DNA of 64,000 nt, from positions 124,001 through 188,000 of the forward strand of contig JAHBXN010000006.1 in NCBI GenBank assembly GCA_019636475.1, in the 5' to 3' direction. The translations under genes and the position numbers were made by a program. The stretch comes from Phycisphaerae bacterium (GTDB lineage Bacteria > Planctomycetota > Phycisphaerae > UBA1845 > UTPLA1). Within the stretch, counting starts at the first letter, position 1. Each line of letters starts with the position of its first letter. Shown here piece after piece: positions 48,798 to 56,829 of this stretch. A model generated the notes under the pieces. That model saw nothing but the letters and a program-made list of their open reading frames with translations. It searched no databases and had not been told where the DNA came from.

Positions 48798-50132
48798 ATG
48801 GATGCCGTTCAATTCGATCCGTCGAAAGCCCGTGAATCTCTGGTCCCGCTTTTGCCCTACCAGCGCGCGGCAATCGAGAATCCCGCACGTTTTACATGGA
48901 ATTGCTGGTCGCGCCAGTCGGGCAAAAGTTTCACATTCAGTTTGCGCCGGGTGATTCGAGGACTGATCCGCCGGCGCGATCAGATCATACTCTCGGCGGG
49001 CGAGCGACAAAGCCGTGAGGTCATGGAAAAGGTTCACCGTCACTGTCATGCCATTAATGTGGCATGCAGCCTGCAATCCGGCCGGAGTGTCGCGCCGGAG
49101 CCGTCGGTCGTTCGTGGGCTTGAGGCGCGGCTGCCCGGTGGCGTGCGGATCATTGCACTGCCGGCGAATCCCCTGACGGCACGCGGTTTCACCGGTGACG
49201 TGTTCCTCGACGAATTCGCGATGCATCGCGACGATGATGCCATATGGGCGGCATTGTTCCCTTCGTTGCTGCGGGGTAATGGCGAGCTGGACGTGGCCTC
49301 AACGCCGCGCGGACAAGGCAATCTCTTTCACCGGCTGATGAGTAATCCGCGATTCGACCGCTCAGTGGTCACACTGCTTCAGGCTGTCGATCAGGGGCTG
49401 GACGTCGATGCCGCCGCCATGCGCGCGGCCGTCGATGACGAGGCGATCTGGCGCCAGGAATTCTGCTGCGAGTTTCTGGACGAGCGCACGAGTTTCATGC
49501 CCTATGCGCTGATTCAATCGTGTCAGTCCGAGGAGCTTTCCACCTGGATCAATTGGGCCGCGCTTCAATCCGACGACGCCGAAGTGTTTGTCGGCGTGGA
49601 TGTCGGCCGCGTGCGCGATCTGACGGCCGTCTGGCTCTGGCGGCGGATTGGCCGGGTGCTGGAGACGGCCGGCGTGTGGGTCATGCGGGCCGCGCCGTTC
49701 ACCGAGCAGGAGTCCGCGCTGTGCGCGTTGCTGTCGCAGCGGTCGGTGCATCGTTGCTGCATCGACGCGACCGGCCTGGGTCGCCATCTGTCCGAGAGGC
49801 TCGCCGAGCGGTACGGCGGTCATCGGGTCGAAGGCGTCATGTTCACGCCGGCGGCGAAAAACCTGCTCGCCGGCGGCCTGCGCGTCGCGGCCGAGCGGGG
49901 ACTCCTCCGCATTCCCGCCGACGCGGAAGTGACGAGCGATTGGCACTCGATTGAAAGGAGCATGGCGGCTGCCGGATCGGTTCGCATCAGCGCCGAGCGG
50001 TCTTCCGGTGGTCACGGCGATCGATTCTGGGCGGCGGCACTGGGACTGCGCGCGGCGGAAGGAAGTATGCCGCCCGGCGCGGGTTTCCTCTCGGGCGGCT
50101 CCACGCGCTTCGGGCGATCCGGTGTGTGGTGA
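48798..50132 (+). CDS. phage terminase large subunit (Mu-like head module)
   Basis: 444-residue packaging ATPase plus nuclease. Walker A is SRQSGKS (residues 38-44), Walker B VFLDEF (135-140), coupling motif ASTPRG (167-172). The RNase-H-like nuclease domain keeps three acidic residues: Asp268 in VGVDVGR, Asp323 in CIDATGLG, and Asp408 in HGDRFWAAA. Both domains look intact, so it could translocate and cut DNA. It is shorter than Mu gp28. It starts 158 bases after the secreted nuclease-like gene and leads six further head genes in the same direction. No small terminase is seen beside it. Confidence 0.87.
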   Translation: MDAVQFDPSKARESLVPLLPYQRAAIENPARFTWNCWSRQSGKSFTFSLRRVIRGLIRRRDQIILSAGERQSREVMEKVHRHCHAINVACSLQSGRSVAPEPSVVRGLEARLPGGVRIIALPANPLTARGFTGDVFLDEFAMHRDDDAIWAALFPSLLRGNGELDVASTPRGQGNLFHRLMSNPRFDRSVVTLLQAVDQGLDVDAAAMRAAVDDEAIWRQEFCCEFLDERTSFMPYALIQSCQSEELSTWINWAALQSDDAEVFVGVDVGRVRDLTAVWLWRRIGRVLETAGVWVMRAAPFTEQESALCALLSQRSVHRCCIDATGLGRHLSERLAERYGGHRVEGVMFTPAAKNLLAGGLRVAAERGLLRIPADAEVTSDWHSIERSMAAAGSVRISAERSSGGHGDRFWAAALGLRAAEGSMPPGAGFLSGGSTRFGRSGVW

Positions 50133-50218
50133 CACGTATGCAACACTGAATTGGGTGGTCAATTTCTGGTCAGACGCCGGGGCCGCGCGAGCGGCTTGCC
50201 CGCGCGACGGAGATCAAC

Positions 50219-51505
50219 ATGAATGCAATCAGAAGGCTCGTAAATGCCCTGCGCGGGCGGCCGGATGCTCCGAAAGCGGGCGTACTGGCTGGTCGAGGAC
50301 AGGAGGATCTGCTTCGGGATTATCCGGCGGACGGACTGACCCCGCAGCGGCTGGTGTCGATTTTTCGAGAGGCCGATGGCGGATCCGTTGCCGCGCAAAT
50401 GGCACTCTATGAGCAGATGGAGGAAAAGGACGCGCATCTTTTCAGCGTCGCGAATACACGGCGGCTGGCGGTGACGGGGCTGCCGTGGGAGGTTGTGTCC
50501 GCGGCGGAGTTGCCGGGATGGGGTGCGGGGCGACTGCGCGGCGCGGATCGCCGGCTGGCTGATGCCGCCGCCGCGTATTGTGACGAGGTCTTGCGCAATC
50601 TGCCGGGGTTCGAAGAGAGCCTTGTTCACCTGTCGCTGGCCAACGGACGGAACATCGCGGTGGCGGAACTGGTGTGGGAGCCGTCGGCGTCGGGTGTTCG
50701 TCTGATGGAAATTGTGCCGGTTGATTTCAGTCGAATCACATTTGACGATCGGGGCGAGCTGCGAATGTTGACGGCCGACGCGCCGGTCGATGGCGTTGCA
50801 CCGCCTCCGTCGAAGTTCATTGTTCATGTTCCGCACGCCGTGTGCGGGCTTCCCGTTCGCGGGGGGCTGATGCGCGCGACGGCCATGGCCTATCTGGGAA
50901 AGCACTTTGCGATCAAGGACTGGCTGATTTTCGCGGAGGTGTTCGGGATGCCGGTGCGCATCGCCCGTTATCACCCGGGCGCGACGGCCGCCGAGAAGCG
51001 TGAATTGCTCGACATGCTCAGGCAGCTTGGCGCGGATGCCACGGGCATCTTCTCGAAGGCCGTGGAGATTGAAATCAAGCAGACTCGGCTGCCGGGTGAA
51101 ACCAACCTGTACGAGAATCTCTGTCTTTACTTCGACCGCGAAATCAGCAAGGCCTGGCTGGGGCAGACGCTGACCGTGGACACGACGCGGAATCGGGCAA
51201 GCGCCGGAGCGGCAAGTGTCCACGATCGAGTGCGGCGCGATCTGCGAGATGACGATCTGCGGAAGGAAGCTCGGACGATTCGCCGCGATCTGCTTGAGAC
51301 GCTGACGCGCTTTGAATTCGGGCCGGACGCGCCAACGCCGCATTTCCGCCGGATTCCGGATCAGGTGTCTTCGCCCGAACAACTGATTGCCGCGCTGCGC
51401 CTGGCAAGGGATATCGGGCTCTCGGTTCCTTCGCGCTGGGCAGCCGCCGCACTGGGGATTCCGGCAACGGACACGGAAGAAAAGGATCTCGCCGCTTCCG
51501 AGTAG
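50219..51505 (+). CDS. Mu-type portal protein (DUF935, gp29-like)
   Basis: 428-residue portal of the DUF935/Mu gp29 family, which forms the ring through which DNA enters the capsid. The family signature block is at residues about 214-256: RGGLMRATAMAYLGKHF, then KDWLIFAEVFGMPVRI, then YHPGA. Further on come YFDREISKAWLGQTLTVD (304-321) and VHDRVRRDLR. GGAG six bases before the ATG supports the start. It is somewhat shorter than Mu gp29. It follows the terminase with an 86-base gap. Confidence 0.92.
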   Translation: MNAIRRLVNALRGRPDAPKAGVLAGRGQEDLLRDYPADGLTPQRLVSIFREADGGSVAAQMALYEQMEEKDAHLFSVANTRRLAVTGLPWEVVSAAELPGWGAGRLRGADRRLADAAAAYCDEVLRNLPGFEESLVHLSLANGRNIAVAELVWEPSASGVRLMEIVPVDFSRITFDDRGELRMLTADAPVDGVAPPPSKFIVHVPHAVCGLPVRGGLMRATAMAYLGKHFAIKDWLIFAEVFGMPVRIARYHPGATAAEKRELLDMLRQLGADATGIFSKAVEIEIKQTRLPGETNLYENLCLYFDREISKAWLGQTLTVDTTRNRASAGAASVHDRVRRDLRDDDLRKEARTIRRDLLETLTRFEFGPDAPTPHFRRIPDQVSSPEQLIAALRLARDIGLSVPSRWAAAALGIPATDTEEKDLAASE

Positions 51506-51652
51506 AGTCGTCATGTGTGCCTTATTTGCGGCACTTCGATTTGGTCGGCGCGGAGATGCGGAGCGCCGAGCAAGCTTACGGACGGTGTCCCGCCGGGAAT
51601 GACCTGGGGGATCAGGTCAGAGCGGGCATGTTCATTTCAAAGGAGGCTGCTC

Positions 51653-52681
51653 ATGTCAGAAACACAGGAGGCGAATCGTGTGAAGGCGGGGACGGATTGC
51701 GTGAGGCTGGTGCTCGCGGCTTCCGGCCTTGAACCGGTGGCGAACGCGAAGGCCGGGATTCCGAGACGATTGCTGATTGTTCCCTGGGGCATGGTCGAGA
51801 GTGAGTCCGGCTCGTTTCTGTGCGATGACGAAGCCGCGCGATTGACGCTGGCGGCTTTCGCGGAGCATGGCGCGGATCTGCCGGTCGACTTCGAACATCA
51901 GACGCTCGGGGGTGAATACAGCTCGCCGTCCGGGCAGGCGCCGGCCGCTGGCTGGATCACGGGGCTTTCGGCGGTGTCGCCCGTCGAGGCCGGACGGCCG
52001 GGTCAGCCTGTTGCGCCGGGGCTGTGGGCGGACGTGACGTGGACCGGCATCGGCGCCGAGCGGCTGGCGAGTCGCGAGTATCGGTATGTTTCACCGGTCG
52101 CCCTGGTTCGGCAGAGTGATCTTCGGATCGTGGGTGTCCATAGCGTGGCACTTACGAACAAGCCGGCGATTGCGGGTATGCGGCCGGTGGTGAATCAGGC
52201 GCCATCGCCGGAGGATCCGAAGTGCGGACTCGACCCCGCTGATCCGACTGCCGCGCATCTCGCTGCGCTGCGGGTTGCATTGTCGCTGGATGCAACTTCG
52301 GATGCGGCGCTTGTGCTGCGGACCGCCGTCGGCCGGCTTCGGGCCCATCAGGGGGCGGAGGCGGAACGTGCGGCGGCGGACCGGGTTGCGTCGGCGATGG
52401 CGGCTGGAAAATTGACCCGGGCGCAGCGGGATTGGGCTTTCGCGCTGGCGCTTCGCGCGCCGACGGAATTCGATCGATGGGCTGAAGGCGCACCGGTGCT
52501 GGTGGCGGCGGGACGGATGTCATTGCCCGGGCGACGACCTGAAAGCGGATCATCGGGGCCGGATCGCACGACGGCCGCAGCGGCTCGTGCGGAGTGGCGA
52601 TCCAACCGGGTATTTCTGGAGCGGCTGTGTTCGGAGGATGCCTATGCGGCGGCATCTGTCCGCGGCGTGGTGCCGGGCTAG
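51653..52681 (+). CDS. Mu gpI-like capsid protease/scaffold
   Basis: 342 residues from ATG 51653, which follows AAGGAGG by seven bases. The N-terminal half (about 10-180) matches the Mu-like prophage I protein: DLPVDFEHQT (78-84), then EYRYVSPVALV (142-152) and HSVALTNKPAIAGM. The C-terminal half is helical and charged (AHLAALRVALSLDATSDAAL; ALRAPTEFDRW). In Mu the C-terminal part of I is also produced as the scaffold Z from an internal start; the same may hold here, but no internal start was verified. It follows the portal directly. Confidence 0.85.
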   Translation: MSETQEANRVKAGTDCVRLVLAASGLEPVANAKAGIPRRLLIVPWGMVESESGSFLCDDEAARLTLAAFAEHGADLPVDFEHQTLGGEYSSPSGQAPAAGWITGLSAVSPVEAGRPGQPVAPGLWADVTWTGIGAERLASREYRYVSPVALVRQSDLRIVGVHSVALTNKPAIAGMRPVVNQAPSPEDPKCGLDPADPTAAHLAALRVALSLDATSDAALVLRTAVGRLRAHQGAEAERAAADRVASAMAAGKLTRAQRDWAFALALRAPTEFDRWAEGAPVLVAAGRMSLPGRRPESGSSGPDRTTAAAARAEWRSNRVFLERLCSEDAYAAASVRGVVPG

Positions 52682-52770
52682 ACAGCGGCCGTCGCGGGGC
52701 GGCTGGAATGGAACGATGAAACAGGAACGAGTCATTGCTTTCCGGAGGAAGAAAGGCGGAGATTGTCATC

Positions 52771-53526
52771 ATGGCACTGATTGAGAATCGGGAACTGAAT
52801 CGTTATGTGGATCAGGAGCTTCGGAGTTTTGGTGTCGCAGAGTCGGCACGGGTCTTCAGGGGGGCTTTTGTCGGCATCGAGCGTGAATCGGGCTGCGTAC
52901 GGAATTTGTCGGCGGGCGATCAGTTCGCGGGCGTTGCCTACGAAGAGATCGACAACACGACGGGATTGGCGGGTGACCGTTCGGTTCGGGTTTACACGCA
53001 GGGCGATTTCGTCGTGCCGACGAGCCTTGTGAGCCAGGCGATCGTGGGGGCTCCCGTGTATGCGGCGGATAGTGAATCGACAACGACGCAGCCGGGCGCC
53101 GGCGCCAGCTTCATCGGTGTCATCATGGCGGTGCTCGGCGCGAGCTCCAGCGTGGTTCGAATCATGCCGGTGGGCGGATCGTTCGCCGAACTGGCGGTGA
53201 ATGTGCCGCTGGTCAGCTCAACCTCGGCGGCGTCAATGCACGCGGTGCTGATTCCGCAGCGAGCCATTCGCGTGATCAGCGCGCAGGTTTCGTTCCGGGT
53301 CGTGCCGGATCAGGGGAATCTGGATGTTGGCGTGGTGACGTCTGATCCGGATGAGATGGTGGATGCGTTTGCATTGTCGACACTGACGGCGAATACGCCG
53401 GTGACGCTGACGCTGGCGGATCGGAGTTTTGAGGCGGGTGTGCCGCTTCATGCGCGGGTCGGTCAGGCATCGAGTACGGCGGGACAGGGGGGAATGCTGT
53501 CGATTCGGTACGTCGAACTGCCGTGA
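52771..53526 (+). CDS. capsid decoration protein, DUF2190-like N-terminus with a C-terminal extension
   Basis: 251 residues from ATG 52771. Residues 1-135 resemble DUF2190 capsid-cement proteins: NLSAGDQFAGVAYEEIDNTTG followed by DRSVRVYTQGDFVVP and a short strand-rich core. Residues about 140-251 are an added beta-rich domain (VRVISAQVSFRVVPDQGN, SFEAGVPLHARVGQASST) whose family I do not recognise; it could be a surface-exposed or fibre-like piece. It sits between the gpI-like protease and the gpT-like capsid gene, where a head-decoration gene is expected. Confidence 0.65.
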   Translation: MALIENRELNRYVDQELRSFGVAESARVFRGAFVGIERESGCVRNLSAGDQFAGVAYEEIDNTTGLAGDRSVRVYTQGDFVVPTSLVSQAIVGAPVYAADSESTTTQPGAGASFIGVIMAVLGASSSVVRIMPVGGSFAELAVNVPLVSSTSAASMHAVLIPQRAIRVISAQVSFRVVPDQGNLDVGVVTSDPDEMVDAFALSTLTANTPVTLTLADRSFEAGVPLHARVGQASSTAGQGGMLSIRYVELP

Positions 53527-53620
53527 TGCCGGTCGACGGGTTGTTATGTGATTGTGGTGTGAATGCGGTTGTCGGGCGGGCGGACGGCCCGATTTGAGCG
53601 ATAGCAAGGAGACAGGGCGA

Positions 53621-54535
53621 ATGGCGATTATCAACACGGGTCTATTGACCAAGGGGCTTCGCGGCGAGTTCTTTAATCGATTCGATGGGACGAGGACGCA
53701 CTTTCAGGACTTGTCGACGCGGGTTTCGTCGGCATCGGATCGCGAAACGTATCGGTGGCTCGGGACGGTCCCGCAGGTTCGCGAGTGGGGAACAGGCCGC
53801 CTCGCGAAGGGACTGCGAACCGAGAGTTACTCGATTGAGAATCTGAAGTACGAGGCCACGCTTGAAGTTGACCGGGACGAAATCAGCGACGATCAGACCG
53901 GCCAGATTCGACTTCGTGTCGGCGAGCTGGCACAGCGAGCCGCGACACACAAGGACTACCTGTTGTCGCAGTTGCTGATTCAGGGTGAATCGGCCGGTCA
54001 CAACAGCTACGACGGCGTGAGTTTCTTCAGTGCGTTCCACGCGTCCGGGGCATCGGGCAATCAGAGCAATCTAATGACGTTCGATGCGACCGCGACCGAC
54101 GCGCCGACCGTTTCCGAATTCAAGGATGCGCTCCAGGCGGCGATCAGCCGGATGCTCACCTACCGGGACGACCAAGGCGAGCCGATGATGATGTCGGCGA
54201 GCGGTCTGGTGTGCGTGGTTCCGGCGACGATGCTGTTTACCGCGACGGAAGCGGTGAACGCTACGATCATCAACAATCAGACGAATGTGCTGGCCGGCAT
54301 CGCGTCCGTGGTGTCATTCCCGTGGCTCGCGGATGCGTCCAAATGGTACCTGCTGAAAACCGACGGTGTCGTGCGACCGTTCATTTTTCAGGATCGTGAG
54401 CCGATCGAATTCAACGGGCTGACCGAGAACTCCGACGAGGGGTTCCGCCGGGAGAAGTTCCTGTTCGGTGTGCGGGCACGATACCGGATGGCATACGGCT
54501 ATTGGCAGTATGCGGTGCGAACGGATTTCGTTTGA
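53621..54535 (+). CDS. Mu gpT-like major capsid protein
   Basis: 304 residues, close to the length of Mu gpT. AAGGAG precedes ATG 53621 by ten bases. It begins MAIINTGLLTKGLRGEFFNRF and carries the gpT pattern: ENLKYEATLEVDRDEISDDQTG, the DYLLSQLLIQGESAGHNSYDG region with FFSAFH, and VVPATMLFTATEAV, then RARYRMAYGYWQYAV near the end. It has an HK97-like fold by family. The shell would be built from this protein. No truncation or internal stop. Confidence 0.9.
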   Translation: MAIINTGLLTKGLRGEFFNRFDGTRTHFQDLSTRVSSASDRETYRWLGTVPQVREWGTGRLAKGLRTESYSIENLKYEATLEVDRDEISDDQTGQIRLRVGELAQRAATHKDYLLSQLLIQGESAGHNSYDGVSFFSAFHASGASGNQSNLMTFDATATDAPTVSEFKDALQAAISRMLTYRDDQGEPMMMSASGLVCVVPATMLFTATEAVNATIINNQTNVLAGIASVVSFPWLADASKWYLLKTDGVVRPFIFQDREPIEFNGLTENSDEGFRREKFLFGVRARYRMAYGYWQYAVRTDFV

Positions 54536-54559
54536 GCGGATTCCGTGGGAGGGGAGCCT

Positions 54560-54985
54560 ATGTCGTATCTCACGAATGCGGACATTGAACTGCGGCTGGG
54601 GTCGCAGCTTTACGTGGAACTGACGGACGACGCGGGAACCGGATCGGCCGATCCTGCGAAAGTGGAGGAAGCGCGACTGGGAGCGGAAGGCGAGGCTGAC
54701 AGCTATCTCGCGGGGCGCTATCAGACACCGGTGGATGCTTCGGCGGCGCCGTCGATTGCGGCTGTGCTGAAGTCGTTTGTGCTGGACATCGCCATTTATC
54801 GGCTGCATCGTCGAAAGCCGCCGGTACCTGCGGACGTGTCTCGATCCTATGTCGAGGCCGTGACATGGCTGAGCCGGGTGGCGTCGTCCGTGGCACACCT
54901 GCCGCTTGTTTCCGAGGCGGCCTCGTCCGCGCGATCGGCCGGGCCCTCGCGGGAGATGACACGGGCCGGATTGCGCGACCTGTAA
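54560..54985 (+). CDS. Mu gp36-like head completion protein (DUF1320)
   Basis: 141 residues, DUF1320/gp36-like. YLTNADIELRLGSQLYVELTDD opens the protein, followed by ARLGAEGEADSYLAGRYQTPV and VLKSFVLDIAIYRLHRRKPP. GGGAGGGG lies just before ATG 54560. Family members act at the head-to-tail interface or head completion. In Mu-like phages it precedes gp37 and tail genes; here gp37 follows and then the module ends. Confidence 0.88.
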   Translation: MSYLTNADIELRLGSQLYVELTDDAGTGSADPAKVEEARLGAEGEADSYLAGRYQTPVDASAAPSIAAVLKSFVLDIAIYRLHRRKPPVPADVSRSYVEAVTWLSRVASSVAHLPLVSEAASSARSAGPSREMTRAGLRDL

Positions 54986-55055
54986 GGTCGGCTGATCAAT
55001 CACGCCGGCATGGTCCGGGACGTGAGCGGACCGGCGGATTTGAATGGAGGGCGGT

Positions 55056-55892
55056 ATGTCGCGCCTGGGTGATTTTGAGAATTCGATCGTAGAGAGGCTG
55101 GGGACCGCTCAGATCGGCGCGACAGCCGCCTTCCGGACCGTCGAGGGGGCGAGTGGTGGGCGGAGACCGTGGAATCGGGAGGCTCTGGCCCGGGAGCGAA
55201 TGCCCGCTGCCTATGTTGCGTTTTTGGAGGAACCGACGGCTCCGGAAACACGGGCCATCCTGCGCGGACCGAGGTTCGCGGTGTTGATCGGATCGCGGTC
55301 GAGCCGTCTGGTGTCAGATCCGAGGCACGGTGACTCCGGCTCGGCGGGCGCGTTCGCGTTGATCGATGCGGCCCGCGGCGTACTGGACGGATTTGAAATC
55401 GACGGCGGACTGGAACTTGTCTGCCTTCAGGTTCGATTTGTCGAGGCGGACGAACGGTCGGTGGTTTATGAACTTGTGTATCGTATCGGAGCGATCGTTG
55501 AGGATGTGCCGTCGGCGGGACTGACTTTTGACGGATCGGCGATTCAGGGTGCCTTGAGCCGGATGTCGATGGAAGTCGGTCCGCAGAACGCCGAAGTGCT
55601 GGAGTATGTCCATCATGAGGGCAGGGCGGTGTATCGCATTTCGCTCGAGTCGGGCAGCCGGATCGTTCGGTGGATGGGTGAGTTGCGGGCGGAGTCACAG
55701 TCGGGCTTGAGCGCGGTCGAGGAGGGCATTGAGTCGGCGATCGGCAGTCTGGCGTCGGCGACGATCGAGGAAGCGGGTGTTCATACGCTGACCGGCTGCA
55801 CAATCACCTGGTTGGTTCGAAAGGGCCCGCGACTGGTGCGCGGGGGTCTGGTCGCGCAGCCTGCGGAGATCGTGTTCGTGCAGAAGCTGTAA
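55056..55892 (+). CDS. Mu gp37-like protein (DUF1834) with C-terminal extension
   Basis: 278 residues from ATG 55056 after GGAGGGC. The N-terminal ~155 residues match the DUF1834 type by length, position and pattern (ERLGTAQIG, VLIGSRS, LELVCLQVRFVEADE). The last ~120 residues (GLTFDGSAIQGALSR to the end) are not typical of the family and include ALSRMSMEVGPQ and a beta-rich end. In Mu-like phages gp37 is near the head-tail connector. It is the last gene of the head set: no tail genes follow. Confidence 0.7.
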   Translation: MSRLGDFENSIVERLGTAQIGATAAFRTVEGASGGRRPWNREALARERMPAAYVAFLEEPTAPETRAILRGPRFAVLIGSRSSRLVSDPRHGDSGSAGAFALIDAARGVLDGFEIDGGLELVCLQVRFVEADERSVVYELVYRIGAIVEDVPSAGLTFDGSAIQGALSRMSMEVGPQNAEVLEYVHHEGRAVYRISLESGSRIVRWMGELRAESQSGLSAVEEGIESAIGSLASATIEEAGVHTLTGCTITWLVRKGPRLVRGGLVAQPAEIVFVQKL

Positions 55893-55986
55893 TTCCGGGA
55901 CCGCGGCGTTCGGTACGGCGCCCGTGCGGTCAAGCGGCCTTCCGGGCTACAATGCGGGCGTGGAAGATTCACGGACAAGCGGGGCG

Positions 55987-56829
55987 ATGAACCGGGGTGG
56001 GCTGATTCGGCTCACACGGGAGATTCGATTTTCGATCGACCGCGACTGGGCGATGGTCGCACACGGCGAAGACGGTTTTGCGCGGGCGCATCCGATTTCG
56101 AACTCATGGGGCGGCTGGCCGTCGGCGGTCGGTATCGCCCCTTTTCTTGTTCTGCGCGTGACGGTCTGCGGGACACCGAACGCGACGACGGGCTATCTCA
56201 TCAACATACAGGAACTGGACCGGCTGTTGCGGATTCATGCGATTCCGCTAACGGCATCGCGGCTTTCGACGATCGGCGCGAAGCTGACGGGCGAGTCTCT
56301 CGTGCGCGGAATTGCGCAGGCGCTTCGGGCGGCGATGGCGGAGGGCTGCGAACTGAAGGCGCTGCGCCTGTGGACGACGCCGTATCTGTCGTGCTCGGTT
56401 CGTTCGGAGGATTTCGACATGGTGGAGTTGACGCAATGCTTCGAGTTTTCGGCATCGCATCGTCTGCATGTGCCGACGATGTCGGATGAGCAGAACCGGG
56501 CATGCTTCGGCAAGTGCAACAATCCGAACGGACATGGTCACAACTATCAGGTTGAGGTGACAGTCGCTCGTCATATCATGTCGGAGGACGGCACGGTGCT
56601 TCCGCTTCCGCGATTTGAGGCCGTCGTGAAGGAGGCGGTCATCGATCGACTGGATCACACGCATTTGAATTCCGATGTGGCGGAATTCGCGTCGTTGAAT
56701 CCGTCGGTGGAGAACATCGCGCGGGTTATCTGGGGGTATCTTGAGGGCAGGCTTTCGCCTGCCGTGCTACATCGTGTTCGTGTGTGGGAGACCGCGAAAA
56801 CGTATGCGGAGTATCAAGGGGGCGACTGA
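55987..56829 (+). CDS. tandem 6-pyruvoyl-tetrahydropterin synthase / QueD-like protein
   Basis: 280 residues made of two PTPS-like halves. The C-terminal half (about 145-280) keeps the complete active site: zinc ligands His158 (FSASHRL), His183 and His185 (NGHGHNY), catalytic Cys177, Asp223-His224 (RLDHTHLN) and Glu268 (ETAKTYAEY). The N-terminal half (about 8-135) has the same strand order but no zinc His and reads as degenerate. The family makes 6-pyruvoyl- or 6-carboxy-tetrahydropterin, the latter for 7-deazaguanines. It is 94 bases after the gp37-like gene on the same strand. Confidence 0.85.
   Translation: MNRGGLIRLTREIRFSIDRDWAMVAHGEDGFARAHPISNSWGGWPSAVGIAPFLVLRVTVCGTPNATTGYLINIQELDRLLRIHAIPLTASRLSTIGAKLTGESLVRGIAQALRAAMAEGCELKALRLWTTPYLSCSVRSEDFDMVELTQCFEFSASHRLHVPTMSDEQNRACFGKCNNPNGHGHNYQVEVTVARHIMSEDGTVLPLPRFEAVVKEAVIDRLDHTHLNSDVAEFASLNPSVENIARVIWGYLEGRLSPAVLHRVRVWETAKTYAEYQGGD

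Follow-up and report, generated by a model that had tools for sequence, protein, structure and literature searches.

A stretch of 64,000 nucleotides from a Phycisphaerae bacterium (assembly GCA_019636475.1, contig JAHBXN010000006.1, positions 124,001 to 188,000; hereafter the window) encodes, at 48798-55892, a cassette of seven genes for the head and DNA-packaging machinery of a Mu-type phage. We interpret this cassette as a piece of a former Mu-headed planctomycete phage, now owned by the host, passed on vertically and kept for making DNA-packaging heads, and assign this reading a probability of about 0.6. That the cassette is domesticated and useful to its host is very probable, being supported by its retention throughout the order, its descent family by family, a shared chromosomal site next to a QueD-like gene and purifying selection. 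It is not a stray prophage: the order-wide retention, together with the failure to find mobility genes beside the cassette, rules out a fresh one. An earlier note on this DNA had favoured a domesticated particle resembling a gene transfer agent (GTA) over a fresh prophage; the domestication stands on the four lines of evidence above, whereas the GTA-like character, along with DNA packaging, assembly, release and transfer, is something we infer from the genes.

Gene content of the cassette

All seven genes lie on the plus strand and all have open frames. The first (48798..50132) encodes the large terminase TerL, a protein of 444 residues with the Pfam domains Terminase_6N (1.6e-17) and Terminase_6C (1.1e-13) and a match to PHROG 5909. 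Across 20 aligned cassette TerLs the GKS at 42-44, which we take to be the Walker A motif, the DE at 138-139 and the aspartates at 268, 323 and 408 are invariant. It is followed by a 428-residue Mu-type portal protein (DUF935; 50219..51505; PF06074 Portal_Mu, 1.9e-81), a 342-residue gpI-like head maturation protease/scaffold (51653..52681; PF10123 Mu-like_Pro, 2e-42; PHROG 328), a 251-residue head decoration or cement protein (52771..53526; PHROG 1731, 7.4e-20, with Pfam below the cut-off) and a 304-residue gpT-like major capsid protein (53621..54535; PF10124 Mu-like_gpT, 7.4e-54). The last two genes encode a 141-residue gp36-like head-tail adaptor (54560..54985; PF07030 Phage_Mu_Gp36, 1.9e-22; PHROG 195, a connector) and a 278-residue gp37-like neck/terminator protein (55056..55892; PF08873 Phage_Mu_Gp37, 1.2e-6, 29.2 bits against a cut-off of 25; PHROG 490), which continues for about 150 C-terminal residues past the matched domain. 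The identities proposed in the earlier note for these co-directional genes are borne out by Pfam in six cases, weakly for gp37, and by PHROG 1731 for the decoration protein. The capsid protein is 67-79% identical to 19 other cassette capsids and its nearest solved relative is the gpT-domain capsid protein 8rkc; no solved relative of gp37 was found.

The genes follow the order of phage Mu, as had been claimed, but the minor head gene F (gp30, MuF) is absent between the portal and protease genes, which are separated by 148 bases. No small terminase was recognised beside TerL, the locus being the only place searched. The description of the genes as intact and well equipped for translation agrees with the open frames and with a GGAG stretch, found by eye, upstream of all seven likely ATG starts (48798, 50219, 51653, 52771, 53621, 54560 and 55056). 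Codon usage and the GC content of third codon positions match those of the neighbours (pooled value 0.72 for the cassette; the mean over 16 genes of the window is 0.73).

Retention, descent and selection

We sampled the order to which the window's genome belongs, presumably GTDB UBA1845, labelling the window's own family f1 and other host families f2, f4, f5, f6 and f8; the window's genome (G000; 4.4 Mb in 18 contigs, 95% complete) and its relatives carry G numbers. A portal profile finds matches in 70 of the 73 order genomes that are at least 90% complete, 62 of 65 high-quality genomes and 55 of 57 genera. Among 61 relatives the capsid profile has a match in 50, and in 43 of the 47 high-quality ones. 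TerL was detected in 34 of the 47 high-quality relatives, the 13 lacking it being 12 f4 members and G017; outside f4 the count is 33 of 34. Beyond the order the picture changes sharply: in a class sample of 198 genomes the capsid is present in 39 of 43 order members, as counted from a kinship-ordered listing, versus 4 of 155 others, one of them a strong match (G363), and a phylum sample of 292 yielded, besides the portal of the own genome, three distant ones. Most of the named relatives found to have the portal are assemblies of Phycisphaerae or Planctomycetota, 'Phycisphaerales bacterium UBA1845' being one.

In a careful portal tree of 47 chosen rows, 26 cassette rows from f1, f2, f5, f6 and f8 are split by a branch with support 98/82 from 21 others, namely six from f4, three prophage-like rows of f1, two diverged f8 copies, four viral contigs and six from other phyla. 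A wider, quick portal tree (57 rows, comprising the best 30 portal loci and chosen f4, prophage-like and outside rows) recovers f1 (16 rows), f4 (11) and f5 (8) each as one clade, and the family labels need 7 changes on it, the minimum, against 34.8 in shuffles. Portal distances were also compared with those of RpoB, which was matched in 58 of 61 relatives; with frames picked by phmmer, the comparison covered 22 genomes drawn from 30 with RpoB loci and left aside G040, whose portal (L147) falls outside the cassette clade in the careful tree. The Mantel correlation is 0.581 (p 0.0001) for all 22 genomes, 0.744 (p 0.0001; p 0.0031 with within-family shuffling) for the 16 outside f4 and 0.945 (p 0.0007, n=7) within f1. 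In the capsid tree, from which L190 was left out as too short, f1 again forms one clade (99). These comparisons point to long-term inheritance with the host, a feature by which GTAs are recognised, with a weak point in the RpoB comparison for f5 and f4.

Selection was estimated for seven chosen pairs of genomes as the ratio of nonsynonymous to synonymous change (dN/dS, Nei-Gojobori). G002 and G013, single-contig genomes with no match to a sheath or to the tail-associated families c9 and c6 described below, give 0.123 for TerL, 0.142 for the portal, 0.196 for the protease, 0.083 for the decoration protein, 0.039 for the capsid, 0.078 for gp36 and 0.092 for gp37; the value for the QueD-like neighbour is 0.120. 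G005 and G014, both of which carry c9, give 0.03-0.14, and the three g2 genomes 0.08-0.34, values that are less exact because synonymous differences are high (pS 0.49-0.73). These ratios bear on the possibility, which we consider unlikely, that the cassette is a decaying remnant that lost its tail first and whose head genes now drift without function. The repeated loss of the tail module in f1, the loss of the capsid block in G008, the failure to find TerL in f4 and some broken copies would fit such decay, but the near-universal retention, dN/dS well below 1 in the tail-less pair, seven open frames in the window and a portal frame that is uninterrupted in nearly all relatives speak against it. 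The alternative raised in the earlier note, a decayed prophage with a deleted tail, holds up as far as the tail is concerned, given the site in G014 (see below), but finds no support in the head genes, as the relaxed selection it predicted in relatives is not seen in G002 and G013 (0.039-0.196).

The flanks consist of ordinary chromosomal genes by their Pfam families, as originally described. One side encodes an endonuclease/exonuclease-dockerin protein, a GH123 protein, 5-FTHF cyclo-ligase, a glycosyl transferase, an O-antigen ligase and a CHASE2-cyclase protein; the other encodes the QueD-like PTPS protein, HEAT repeats, a dockerin-like protein and PheT-type domains. Among 13 flanking proteins Pfam recognised no phage structural, lysis, integrase or transposase family (two had no match at all), and integrase, transposase and replication families were found neither in these 13 by Pfam nor in 10 by PHROGs; the statement that no tail, lysis, integrase, transposase or replication gene is adjacent is upheld by these searches. 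The QueD-like gene (55924..56829, plus strand; PF01242, 1.7e-38) lies outside the element, its open frame starting 31 bases past the gp37 stop, and marks the chromosomal site in f1. The encoded protein has about 165 residues ahead of its PTPS domain. The synteny comparison suggested earlier shows this QueD-flanked site to be common to 9 of the 12 f1 members with sequence beyond the cassette: QueD closely follows gp37 in G012, G016 and the window, and in G001, G002, G013, G009 and G011 the matched part of QueD begins 0.9-1.8 kb beyond the gp37 stop, with no c9 in between. G003, G007 and G015 showed no QueD close to the cassette; small open reading frames lie downstream of gp37 in G007. Beyond phage-type genes, this f1 gene is the only neighbour conspicuous across many loci.

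Tail modules, prophages and reduced cassettes

In relatives the neck genes are followed by either of two conserved blocks. Type A consists of c9 (about 715 residues), c11, c10, often one more gene, c13 and c14, and type B of c8, c6, c7 and c12. Family searches gave no convincing assignment for c9, c10, c11, c13, c14, c8, c6 or c7, and one c12 protein has fibre-like PHROG matches. A structural model of c9 (pLDDT 65) resembles the tail hubs of PVC, Mu gp44, T4 gp27 and VgrG (best fold match Z 18.3, root-mean-square deviation 4.0 over 279 residues), which places c9 as a predicted tail hub. The best matches of c6 are tail-tube proteins (Z 8.3, root-mean-square deviation 4.3 over 115 residues); as its model is poor (pLDDT 61), and a Z below 8 may reflect a mere common arrangement, we call c6 tube-like tentatively. 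The C-terminal part of gp37 was considered as a built-in tube and gp37 itself as a relative of c8, but profile comparisons with c6 (E 0.72) and c8 (E 0.4) gave nothing, a shared fold being possible in both cases.

Matches to c9 occur in 19 of 61 relatives (15 close, 4 distant), with close matches in 5 of 17 f1 genomes, and c6 occurs in 5 of 61, all in f8. When unlinked tail genes were sought elsewhere in the window's own genome, no profile match to c9, c6 or a sheath was found; a contractile tail encoded elsewhere was likewise rejected, the sheath family PF04984 occurring in 1 of 61 relatives. G014 has gp37, c9, c11, c10, a 207-residue gene, c13, c14 and QueD, arranged in this order. As this close relative has the tail-tip genes at the very QueD-flanked site from which they are missing in the window, the window's state is best read, from gene order, as a deletion of the tail module. 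The earlier note had held that a full Mu-like prophage with tail genes at this site in a close relative would indicate a remnant; G014 supplies the tail-tip genes, but a full prophage was not seen there.

A separate Mu-like prophage is present in the own genome (G000:C9, about 60-86 kb; L032-L034), with TerL, a long portal protein, a protease, a capsid protein, a tail-tube family match, a Mu transposase and an AAA protein. Its longer portal protein matches Phage_Mu_F weakly (E 0.01), short of the cut-off. The capsids of prophage and cassette are 63% identical, the portals 34% and the TerLs 31%; at such distances, and with the prophage portal standing among the 21 rows apart from the cassette clade, the cassette is not a recent copy of this prophage. 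Viral contigs (L239-L246), probably from planctomycete phages, encode capsids 49-69% identical to that of the cassette. The best phage-collection matches are 38% for the capsid and 36% for the portal. The nearest viral relative found, L239 (IMGVR_UViG_3300033153_008243; capsid 69%, portal 49%, TerL 47%), has the same head gene order and differs in its 804-residue portal protein, a long downstream gene run as in a phage and a position outside the cassette clade. In L240, L241 and L243 c9-like proteins are encoded several genes downstream, behind proteins of about 300-320 and 460-510 residues that are presumably the tube and tape-measure proteins; no counterpart of these was seen in the cassettes.

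Such relatives raise the possibility that the cassette is a helper or parts store, its heads joining the tails of co-resident Mu-like prophages or its capsid genes being picked up by phages. The own prophage, with its transposase, AAA protein, tail-tube match and similar capsid, and the viral contigs with related capsids would suit this role. We nevertheless regard it as very improbable: second, diverged portals (32-35% identity, on other contigs) occur in just 4 of 61 relatives (G000, G001, G005, G010), the cassette being nearly universal, and the portal and TerL of the own prophage are far removed from those of the cassette.

The cassette takes other forms in other families. In each of the nine f5 genomes compared, TerL-portal sits on another contig than protease-decoration-capsid or is separated from it by 8 kb or more, a split reminiscent of the accessory loci that PMC11841831 describes for known GTAs. 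The f4 loci (L134-L145) retain diverged portal, protease, decoration, capsid and gp36 genes; a search with PF03237 gave one match above the cut-off and two below. In most f4 loci a gene of about 160-250 residues follows the portal. Extra or displaced decoration-capsid genes occur in f8 (L146, L162, L163, L183-L185, L187, L188), and L185 has a second portal beside its extra capsid copy and a protease on the other strand.

Known systems and a possible function

Several observations weigh against our interpretation. The cassette TerL profile has a match in 1 of 13 f4 genomes, and there at a distant place. G017, G019 and G489 lack the portal and G480 has a portal fragment. Portal and RpoB distances are uncorrelated in f5 (r -0.12, n=6) and f4 (r 0.18, n=6). 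In the capsid tree, prophage and viral rows are interspersed at low support among the cassettes of families other than f1; given this mixing and the existence of close phage capsids (63% identical in the own prophage, 69% in L239), exchange of capsid genes with phages is possible. G024 and G490 have a portal divided into two pieces, G023 a split TerL, and G003 and G046 a stop in c9, all of which may reflect decay or assembly errors. G008 has TerL and portal (L158, G008:C7:292001-312000) and no capsid match in its genome; downstream of TerL-portal lie an unrelated gene in reverse orientation and a fragment of a portal, and this is likely a decaying copy. The tail module is missing in the window, and on the f1 portal tree the presence of c9 requires four or more changes, which we would read mostly as losses since c9 is also found in f2, f5 and f8.

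The head of RcGTA is of a different type from the Mu-type head. According to PMC11841831, GTAs such as RcGTA have phage-derived structural genes, long host inheritance, no mobility genes and several loci. The cassette shares phage-derived genes, host inheritance, the lack of self-propagation genes beside the cluster and multi-locus parts, and differs in that a Mu-type portal, protease and gpT capsid replace the RcGTA head, in its Planctomycetota host and in having no recognised tail in the window; it is moreover known here from its genes. With head and neck genes in the window where a GTA would have head and tail genes, the missing tail means that the cassette cannot be filed as a GTA, though it may still work like one. 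One planctomycete prophage TerL is noted close to RcGTA-like ones in PMC7947584, and a literature search covering few subscription papers and no bioRxiv found no report of an element such as this in Planctomycetota.

The portal, protease, decoration, capsid and gp36 genes of the cassette belong to the same families and stand in the same order as in Mu-like phages and prophages (JBD30, Mushu and the own prophage), and a Mu-type gp37 is present as well. Unlike these phages, the cassette has no transposase, MuF, tube, tape-measure, baseplate or lysis gene recognised beside it, and hence does not combine transposase and tail genes in one element; it is also near-universal in the order and follows host families in its descent. 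Encapsulin nanocompartments combine a shell protein and a dedicated cargo enzyme and have no packaging genes, whereas the cassette has portal, protease and TerL. Encapsulins are, like the cassette capsid, virus-type shell proteins kept by cells (PMC8346489). This likeness suggests a third alternative, a protein compartment in which the head serves as a shell without DNA and TerL and portal are leftovers. The f4 loci without a detected TerL and the extra decoration-capsid copies of several f8 genomes accord with it. In f1, by contrast, TerL, portal, gp36 and gp37 are kept at low dN/dS, the TerL motifs are invariant, and the QueD-like gene is the sole widely shared neighbour of other than phage type, no widely shared cargo candidate being seen. 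A compartment is therefore improbable, and the retention of portal, protease, TerL and neck proteins is more in keeping with a head that packages DNA.

If the cassette does make such heads, the protease/scaffold and gpT would assemble a procapsid on the portal, the protease would mature it and the decoration protein stabilise it, and TerL would fill it with host DNA by headful packaging, perhaps with little sequence preference, since no small terminase was recognised beside it. The proteins gp36 and gp37 would then close the neck. A stubby tip might be attached there in some relatives, made of hub and further proteins (type A) or of tube-like and fibre-like proteins (type B). As neither tip is detectable in the window's genome, its particle would be a closed, tail-less, DNA-filled head or one finished by unlinked, unrecognised genes. 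That the cassette packages host DNA in the window's lineage has slightly better than even odds in our judgement, being favoured by the invariant TerL motifs and the kept portal and neck proteins; a particle without any tail falls somewhat short of even odds. The neck proteins under selection without a tail are the main puzzle: either they seal the head, or a tail part is encoded elsewhere in unrecognised form. More speculatively, and less likely to be right as a whole, the order may own a DNA-packaging head as a cellular part, with several lineages, the window's among them, having stably lost the tail while selection maintains head, motor and neck; the product would be a tail-less GTA or a DNA-holding capsid with transfer, if any, not by phage injection.

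Were our interpretation correct, Planctomycetota would have a GTA-like element with a Mu-type head in almost all sampled members of an order represented mostly by metagenome assemblies. Repeated tail loss accompanied by continued selection would pose a testable question, namely what use a packaged head has without injection. The order and its viral relatives might then present stages of domestication side by side, from long-tailed phages through heads with stubby tips and bare heads to the f4 heads without a recognised motor.

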